This document shows positions 1,606-5,220 of a stretch of DNA of 64,000 nucleotides, one piece after another. This stretch comes from Roseivirga sp. Its GTDB lineage: Bacteria; Bacteroidota; Bacteroidia; Cytophagales; Cyclobacteriaceae. Below the pieces are notes generated by a model that saw nothing but the letters and a program-made list of their open reading frames with translations, had not been told where the DNA came from and did no database searches. Numbering within the stretch: position 1 is the stretch's first letter; each line of letters opens with the position of its first letter. The stretch is from positions 109,951-173,950 of the forward strand of contig JAJCYM010000070.1 in assembly GCA_029262895.1 (NCBI GenBank). Reading direction: 5' to 3'. The position numbers and the translations under genes are program-made.

Positions 1606-2334
1606 CTAGTTTCGGAATATGAAATCCTTGTAAAGGTGCATATATTTTACATTCCTTTCTTTGATTTCGAATGGAATACCGGGCTGGTCTGCATCTGTTG
1701 GGATTATTCGGATTTTAACAATTTCATTTGCTCTGGGTTTGAAATGCAACATCTCCCATGACCAAAAGGCTTCTATCAATACCTTGCCATTTTCAACTCT
1801 TCTCGAAGTCATTATTGGCTTATCAGTTTCAGTATATGCCGTTCCTTGCGGCCCAAGTCTTAGCAATTGCCATTGATGTGGATTTTGATCCATAGGTGAC
1901 ATCCAATTGCCGTAATAGTAATTATCTCCTCTCTGTATTCTAAGTACAATGTTGTCTGAAAAGTACATGCCATCTCTCGCACCGTTGCCACTTGGGTGTT
2001 CCCATCTTGCTTCAGCTCGGGTACTCACTCGTCTGGTATCAATGACATCATCCCTCCATTCAATGGCCGCAAATAAGCCATCGTCATTCCAGGCTAGTTT
2101 CAGGTTTACATGAAGGTCGTTTATTCCATCAAAAGGTTTTCTTCCTTCATCAAAGACTCCGGGAGTGCTGTCATTCGAGGAGAAAACAATTCCCGGAACA
2201 TTATGCCACTCCTTAAGGTGTCCATCAATATCAGCATATGTCAGCCTCGGAATGGTCCGTTGCTGACTGAGGCTATTGAAAGATAGCAGGGTTAATAATA
2301 GGGCGGTTGCAATGGTTTTCATGAAAATCTTCAA
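1606..2334 (-). CDS. Secreted sugar/heme-binding-like protein (CBM9 / ethylbenzene dehydrogenase-type heme-binding fold)
   Basis: Signal peptide; ADIDGHLKEWHNVPGI..., LAWNDDGLFAAIEWRDDVID, GMYFSDNIVLRIQRGDNYYYGNWMSPMDQNPHQW. Confidence 0.6.
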   Translation of the reverse strand: MKIFMKTIATALLLTLLSFNSLSQQRTIPRLTYADIDGHLKEWHNVPGIVFSSNDSTPGVFDEGRKPFDGINDLHVNLKLAWNDDGLFAAIEWRDDVIDTRRVSTRAEARWEHPSGNGARDGMYFSDNIVLRIQRGDNYYYGNWMSPMDQNPHQWQLLRLGPQGTAYTETDKPIMTSRRVENGKVLIEAFWSWEMLHFKPRANEIVKIRIIPTDADQPGIPFEIKERNVKYMHLYKDFIFRN

Positions 2335-2396
2335 CGAACTGGTCTGGTTGAAGATATAAAAGTTACACAGACGGAATGGTCAGGAACAGGTCAAAT

Positions 2397-2557
2397 TATA
2401 CCAATTCAATTATGAAATGGCGCGAATAGAAATTAAATTATTATCGCTTGATTAAGGCGAAAAATGAGGGCATACATCGTTATGGCTAATTTTTTCAACG
2501 AAGAGCAAGCGGTAAGAAATGATTTGTATCCGTCATGTTATATTTGATTTGGTATTA
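2397..2557. repeat. ~160-bp long imperfect inverted repeat (MITE-like / long-hairpin intergenic element)
   Basis: Outer arms ATACCAATTCAATTATGAAATGGCGCGAATAGAAATT versus reverse complement of the other end, ATACCAAATCAAATATAACATGACGGATACAAATCATT. Inner arms also pair, with the apex near GGGCATACATCGTTATGGCT (2468-2487). Confidence 0.75.
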
Positions 2558-3013
2558 GTCGTTAATGCCGTTTTCGAAGGCAACGTCAGCGATTAAACCA
2601 CCACCGTCTGCAGCATTCACCGCCAATTCATCGCAACGCTCATTTTCCGGTACTCCGGCATGGCCTTTCACCCATTGGAAGCTAACTCTGTGCACTTTGT
2701 AAATTTCAGCGAAGCGGAGCCATAAGTCCTTGTTCTTTTTGCCTTTGAAGTCTTTCTTGATCCATCCCCAAAGCCACCCTTTCTCGACCGAGTCTATCAC
2801 ATATTTGGAATCAGAATAAACCGTTACCGGAGCATTGGGTTTCGTGATGGCTTCCAAACCCTTGATCACAGCCAAAAGCTCCATGCGATTGTTGGTGGTC
2901 TTACGAAAACCTTCAGAAAGCTCTTTGCGATGTTCTTTGTATTTCAGAACAACGCCATACCCTCCGCGCCCTGGGTTGCCTTTGGAAGAGCCATCCGTAT
3001 AGATTACAATCAT
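2555..3013 (-). CDS. rnhA: Ribonuclease HI
   Basis: MIVIYTDGSSKGNPGRGGYG...NNRMELLAVIKGLEAI...VYSDSKYVIDSV...WVKGHAGVPENERCDELA. Confidence 0.95.
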   Translation of the reverse strand: MIVIYTDGSSKGNPGRGGYGVVLKYKEHRKELSEGFRKTTNNRMELLAVIKGLEAITKPNAPVTVYSDSKYVIDSVEKGWLWGWIKKDFKGKKNKDLWLRFAEIYKVHRVSFQWVKGHAGVPENERCDELAVNAADGGGLIADVAFENGIND

Positions 3014-4320: not shown

Positions 4321-5220
4321 TTGGCTTGGGATGTTTATATACAAGAGTATGAGAACTACTTAAAACTGGAACGTTCGCTTTCTGAAAATTCAGTTGAAGC
4401 ATATGTTCATGATGTCGCAAAGCTAAAACAGTTTCTAGATATCTCCAATCTGGAACTCACCCCCTTGCAAATTGAATACCAACACCTGCAGGATTTGATC
4501 GAGTATATCAACGACCTGGGAATGACTCCACACTCTCAGGCCAGGATAATTTCCGGACTGAAGTCCTTTTTCAAATATATGGTCTATGAGGGTGAAATGG
4601 ACAAAGACCCAACCACTTTGCTGGAAGCGCCCAAATTAGGTAGGAAGTTGCCAGACACTCTTGCGGTTCATGAGATTGAATTGATTTTTGAGGCCATTGA
4701 TCATTCCAAACCTGAGGGTATGCGCAACCGAGCAATGCTGGAAACCTTGTACAGCTCAGGGCTGCGCGTAACGGAACTTATCGGATTGCGGACGGCAAAC
4801 ATTCACTTTGATATCGGCTTCGTGAGAGTGCTGGGTAAGGGAAACAAGGAACGTCTGGTGCCTATAGGTAGAGAGGCGTTGAAGTTCATCAATATTTATA
4901 GGGACGAGGTAAGAAGTCATCTGGACGTGCCAGAGGATCATAAACCATTTTTGTTTCTGAATAGGAGGGCTAAACAGCTTTCACGTCAAATGGTATTTAT
5001 GATGATTAAAGATTTGGTAGCCTTGGCAGGTCTGAAGAAGACGGTTAGCCCACACACATTCCGACATTCCTTTGCCACCCACCTTATTGAGGGAGGAGCA
5101 GACTTACGTGCGGTGCAGGAAATGTTGGGTCATGAATCCATCACAACAACCGAGATTTATACGCACCTGGACAGAGATTATCTCAAGCAAGTAATCCAGG
5201 ATTTTCACCCGAGGAGTTAG
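4321..5220 (+). CDS. xerD: Site-specific tyrosine recombinase XerD
   Basis: WDVYIQEYENYLKLERSLSENSVEAY...RNRAMLETLYSSGLRVTELIGL...HTFRHSFATHLIEGGADLRAVQEMLGHESITTTEIYTH. In-frame TTG at 4321 fits the XerD N-terminus better than 4240, which lies within aroQ. Confidence 0.93.
   Translation: MAWDVYIQEYENYLKLERSLSENSVEAYVHDVAKLKQFLDISNLELTPLQIEYQHLQDLIEYINDLGMTPHSQARIISGLKSFFKYMVYEGEMDKDPTTLLEAPKLGRKLPDTLAVHEIELIFEAIDHSKPEGMRNRAMLETLYSSGLRVTELIGLRTANIHFDIGFVRVLGKGNKERLVPIGREALKFINIYRDEVRSHLDVPEDHKPFLFLNRRAKQLSRQMVFMMIKDLVALAGLKKTVSPHTFRHSFATHLIEGGADLRAVQEMLGHESITTTEIYTHLDRDYLKQVIQDFHPRS

Follow-up and report, generated by a model that had tools for sequence, protein, structure and literature searches.

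A mobile fold-back element with a conserved core at the rnhA stop codon of Roseivirga sp.

The 64,000-nucleotide stretch of the Roseivirga sp. genome analysed here (the window, from the genome labelled G000) carries a 156-bp mobile hairpin element with TACC...GGTA ends at positions 2399–2554 of the + strand, next to the stop codon of rnhA. The family to which it belongs displays an unusual arrangement in which the inner core is conserved and the ends are variable. Taken together, the evidence makes it probable that this is a non-autonomous fold-back element that would insert at TNA, served in trans by an IS5-type enzyme, and whose core would be kept as a single folded strand.

Position, ends and fold of the element at rnhA

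The window copy corresponds to positions 112349–112504 of contig C70. Its exact ends are defined by comparison with the other copies and lie slightly inside the interval 2397–2557 given in the preliminary description. The element is bordered by the triplet TTA on both sides (2396–2398 and 2555–2557), the right-hand triplet being complementary to TAA, the stop codon of rnhA. The rnhA gene (RNase H, 152 aa; PF00075, E = 3.6e-40) occupies 2555–3013 on the - strand and its frame ends within the duplicated TTA, so that the insertion leaves the protein unchanged. The stop codon, previously read as one end of the element, belongs to the TTA/TTA target-site duplication and lies outside it. The left terminus, TACCAATTCAATTATGAAATGGCG (2399–2422, + strand), is established by copy alignment A1 and a pattern scan of the genome, and the right terminus reads inward as TACCAAATCAAATATAACATGA (2533–2554, - strand; A1). 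Between them lies the conserved core (2449–2509, + strand), which core model R2 scores at 59.5 bits (E = 2.8e-12) and which is its only match in the 64-kb window. Within the core, AAGGC at 2454–2458 (+) and AACG at 2497–2500 (+) form, respectively, the left and right sides of the conserved internal loops; in alignment A4, columns G8, G9 and C10 of the former are at least 90% conserved, and of the latter A50 and A51 are invariant and C52 and G53 at least 90% conserved. The apex stem-loop at 2470–2485 (+) reads GCATACATCGTTATGG in the window copy and GCATAGCATCGCTATGG in most copies (A1, A4); the loss of one apex base makes the window copy 156 bp long instead of 157 bp.

The + strand of 2385–2570 folds into one long imperfect hairpin of -51.1 kcal/mol against -34.9 +/- 3.9 kcal/mol for shuffled sequences (z = -4.1; equalled by 0 of 200 shuffles). 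This confirms the long hairpin of the preliminary description, although the arms, whose outer parts were there called near-identical, are really imperfect: 54 of 71 aligned arm positions pair in the G000 consensus, and a repeat search with a 9-bp seed returned no inverted repeat at the window element. The - strand folds more weakly (-26.2 kcal/mol, z = -1.9). The well-folding strand is antisense to rnhA (-51 versus -26 kcal/mol), which disfavours the earlier suggestion of a structured 3' RNA of rnhA at this site.

Copies, target sites and gene context

The region has 42 BLASTN matches in its own genome, 35 of them near full length (84–98% identity) and found in both orientations. Comparison of the oriented copies sets the ends at TACC...GGTA, with a length of 157 bp in most. 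Identical triplets flank 25 of 34 copies (TTA 19, TAA 4, TCA 1, TGA 1, all of the form TNA), and a perfect duplication is missing in the other 9; where both flanking triplets are TNA, their middle bases coincide more often than chance predicts (Fisher P = 9e-5). Identical TNA flanks also occur in 14 of 17 copies in genome G062, where TTA and TAA are about equally frequent, and in 8 of 8 in genome G091. As read from these sequences, the flanking triplets are 3-bp target-site duplications at TNA. With its short length (156–157 bp), multiple dispersed copies, sharp ends, lack of coding capacity, terminal inverted repeats and target-site duplications, the element bears out the earlier reading as a MITE-like non-autonomous transposon, and the many copies and the strong covariation described below are clearly the opposite of a single copy lacking covariation, the outcome that would have spoken against it.

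Joining the flanks of the 34 copies places the insertion sites between genes or at gene ends, and none lies deep within an open reading frame of ordinary size, though coding sequence makes up about 89% of the window. In six of the 34 the insertion point coincides precisely with a stop codon, where about 6% would be expected (P ~0.015–0.02). Stop-codon targeting as such was rejected on this weak excess, which is attributed to TNA targeting and selection; insertion at TNA also accounts for how a copy may come to lie on a stop codon with the protein intact. In 22 of 34 copies the left neighbouring gene reads towards the element; orientations are mixed. A pair of element ends 2.8 kb apart on contig C62 was rejected, as it encloses ordinary genes. 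Separately, short derivatives, about 24–71 bp long and with both ends retained, occur at L046 (4757–4784), L047 (~4528–4551), L048 (~1797–1825), L052 (1701–1756), L037 (1501–1570) and L039 (1501–1571), and are probably internal deletions through the hairpin.

Conserved core, distribution and strand asymmetry

Thirty copies from three genomes share a 53-pair hairpin in which 20 pairs show compensatory changes, and 0 of 500 shuffles match it in any of five measures. The covariance model built from these copies (R1) detects hairpins in 18 of 150 relatives, spanning 15 genera; its matches were inspected one by one since R1 alone would also score unrelated long hairpins. Despite very different termini, nearly all R1 matches carry a central motif composed of AAGGC, an A-tract, a short stem, the apex ATAGCANCGCTAT, a T-tract and AACG (locus L070 was excepted by eye). 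In core alignment A4, comprising 48 representatives of distinct subfamilies, the segments AGGC, TAGC and AACG are nearly invariant. The core consensus structure contains 14 pairs, 13 of them with double-sided changes, and 95.8% of cells are paired; its covariation score is 0.418 versus 0.116 for shuffles and no more than 0.090 with the partners slid. In two alignment rows C-G replaces G-C between two conserved loops while the flanking unpaired bases are kept.

A scan of named genomes with the core pattern gives at least 113 matches in at least 111 stretches, and the matches listed include Saprospiraceae, Cyclobacteriaceae, Flavobacteriaceae, Bacteroidales, Microscilla, Aureispira and Chlorobiota, together with Microbulbifer, Comamonadaceae and Mariprofundus. 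The statement in the preliminary description that similar elements occur in other Bacteroidota was thus right and too modest, as the family extends beyond that phylum. Nearly all of 31 inspected core-pattern loci are long hairpins of the same kind with unrelated arms, dozens of differing arms and termini surround the same core, and the hairpins measure 153–162 bp where both ends can be fixed. A strict test requiring paired ends and identical TNA flanks is passed by 27 of 98 copies found from the pattern only, again at 153–162 bp. Among 399 genomes of the phylum surveyed with R2 under strict filters, five besides G000 have matches at E <= 1e-6, three of them with at least 10 matches each; these genomes, G462, G404 and G498 among them, were found through the core model itself. 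Distribution among related genomes is patchy and copy number high, and one complete genome, G404, by itself holds several subfamilies with different ends. In the 7.1-Mb genome G062 about 1363 terminus-pattern matches compare with 191 for the reversed control, which suggests several hundred hairpin copies.

A second long-hairpin family in G000 (L222–L241, 20 loci) has ends AACCCGG...CCGGGTT, apex GCATAGCACCGCTATGG and weak R2 scores of 17–26 bits. At L041 in genome G008, a second hairpin with the same apex motif as the element sits in the right arm of a hairpin copy.

A palindrome that counted solely in its double-stranded DNA form would be expected to show as many G-T as A-C mismatches between its arms on the core strand. 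With orientation set by the core sequence and cluster means summed over 318 copies in 63 arm clusters, the arm mismatches comprise 225 G-U versus 88 A-C (51 clusters versus 8, P = 9e-9). Loci found from the core pattern alone give 69.5 versus 22.2 in 21 clusters (18 versus 2, P = 4e-4). Inside the core pairs of the 48-row alignment, G-U and A-C changes are near equal (~13 versus ~12), which locates the G-U bias in the arms. A first count of mismatch types, 26 G-U versus 5 A-C, was discarded as biased by pairs that RNAalifold had chosen; pairs chosen regardless of strand give 20 versus 8 types (P = 0.036). The predominance of G-U among the arm mismatches, read on the core strand, suggests that the hairpin is maintained as one strand and supports a constraint that would act on a folded single strand of RNA or ssDNA. 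We infer from these sequence patterns that the core would function in a single-strand working form of either kind. Given this constraint across the family, the element may itself act as RNA or ssDNA.

The compensatory changes, the one-strand G-U bias, the A-tract and T-tract flanking the apex and the excess of copies on stop codons would also suit a host structured RNA or bidirectional transcription terminator that was spread by transposition and retained because it acts on nearby transcripts. We consider this unlikely: a simple scan found no terminator-like site, the orientation to neighbours is mixed (22/34) with the folding strand antisense at rnhA, and the patchy presence in related genomes fits a mobile parasite better. 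Nor does an Rfam family correspond, with 0 matches over 14 loci and only chance-level hits, below the gathering score, in window positions 2000–3000. The strand asymmetry and the conserved unpaired bases beside helices are likewise what an ssDNA transposon of the IS200/IS605 or REP/RAYT kind, with the folded strand recognised during replication, could leave behind. For IS200/IS605, REP/RAYT and REPIN elements, however, target-site duplication is not expected, and the hairpins are flanked by matching 3-bp duplications, with TAA/TAA, TCA/TCA and TGA/TGA among them. In addition, ten copies in G404 are split 7 versus 3 with no clear replichore preference by sampled GC skew, so that the lagging-strand insertion bias sought there was not seen, and such a transposon appears very unlikely.

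Candidate transposases, related systems and meaning

The IS1031 group of the IS5 family inserts at TNA with a 3-bp repeat (PMC12016507), and the TNA target and 3-bp duplication of the hairpins in G000, in other genomes and among the pattern-only copies follow the same rule. In G498, an IS5-family insertion sequence (L393, 1401–2258) and the resident hairpins share GAGCCTGTTTAAATTTTATT, identical at 20 of 20 bases. Similarly, an insertion sequence of 864–867 bp in genome G139, with TNA duplications and a transposase assigned to NF033580 transpos_IS5_3 (NCBIfam, E = 1.6e-44), has ends GAGCATGTTTAAA that resemble the hairpin ends GAGCATGTTTAAATTT of Saprospiraceae MAG-151. Relatives of the G139 transposase were found in none of G000, G462, G404, G458 and G662, the last four of which also contain hairpins, and no transposase enclosed by paired TACCAAWTC or TACCAAWTCAA ends was found in G000. 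Draft assemblies collapse repeated insertion sequences. Mobilisation of the TACC-ended window subfamily by an IS5-type transposase is thus a deduction from other genomes, since no TACC-ended partner was found in G000.

The joint reading would run as follows. A fold-back DNA of about 157 bp would insert at TNA and duplicate 3 bp; at rnhA, insertion into the TAA stop codon would have been followed by restoration of the stop through the duplication. An IS5-type DDE transposase, IS1031-like and with a TNA target, would act in trans on the terminal repeats, and the ends of each subfamily would fit a transposase resident now or formerly. At some step the element would operate as one folded strand of RNA or ssDNA, which would explain why the core and the full-length pairing persist.

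An ordinary MITE would be simpler, arising by internal deletion of one insertion sequence, with the hairpin as its joined inverted ends and the core as a chance leftover of the parent. The short length, absence of open reading frames, terminal repeats, TNA duplications and high copy number agree with it, and G062 at first seemed such a case. The terminal repeats, however, are wholly different between subfamilies even in one genome, and it is the interior that shows conservation between phyla together with covariation, whereas a leftover interior should decay first. The apparent autonomous parent in G062 (L150) was also rejected: its flanks match the hairpin, but what they enclose is an IS4-family insertion sequence inserted in the hairpin apex, with its own ends CCATAGCC...GGCTATGG as shown by comparison with relatives. 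We therefore give little credence to an ordinary MITE. Ends of the type TACCAAATC paired 1–2 kb apart, also considered, proved to be two separate copies.

IS4-family insertion sequences lie between inverted flanks at L150 (882–2561), L146/L212, L199, L205, L207, L208, L209, L216 and L220. These have the inner ends CCATAGCCGTCAGxxTAAG, two are assigned to NCBIfam transpos_IS4_1, and they are placed as if they targeted hairpin loops. At L159 in G062 (~1266–2475) a GGCACC...ACCGCTATGGTG apex is split in two by an insertion sequence, so that the hairpin apex seems to act as a hotspot for insertions of more than one insertion sequence.

Among known systems, the IS1031 group of IS5 is alike in its TNA target and 3-bp duplication, and the hairpin ends match the G498 insertion sequence end; unlike it, the hairpins are 153–162 bp long, transposase-free and provided with a conserved core. 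The enterobacterial ERIC (127 bp) and YPAL/RU-2 (~167 bp) elements are likewise short, multi-copy, intergenic, gene-free long hairpins but duplicate TA (PMC2759123), and by eye the YPAL sequence printed there has a different apex. ERIC contains motifs resembling AAGGC and AACGCAG; membership, considered on that account, was rejected, as the best R2 score at an E. coli ERIC locus (L362) is 4.0 bits (E = 2.6). REPINs and RAYT-linked REP sequences are also mobile palindromes with single-strand structure, although the available part of PMC3733652 gives REP units of 20–40 bp, against 157 bp with 3-bp duplications here. A Cardinium MITE shares the host phylum Bacteroidota and has an identifiable parent insertion sequence, but the parent belongs to the IS982 family and a conserved core is not mentioned in the available part of PMC9769881. 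Phage, plasmid and viral-contig collections contain no match to the element or core, and open-access papers searched for several of these features gave no description of the hairpin family. This is thus a large multi-phylum family absent from the databases and literature searched, which may have been described earlier.

MITEs are usually recognised by conserved ends around a disposable middle. Here the pattern is reversed, the middle being conserved across phyla with strong covariation while the ends are interchangeable. Going further, and tentatively, the family could be a distinct class of mobile elements whose hallmark is a core folded as a single strand, either RNA or ssDNA. Such elements would have reached several phyla by repeatedly adopting the terminal repeats of different resident insertion sequences, and some factor would recognise the core. 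The reversed pattern suggests a parasite of insertion sequences for which a change of host means a change of transposase, and the conserved core points to some directly testable function.
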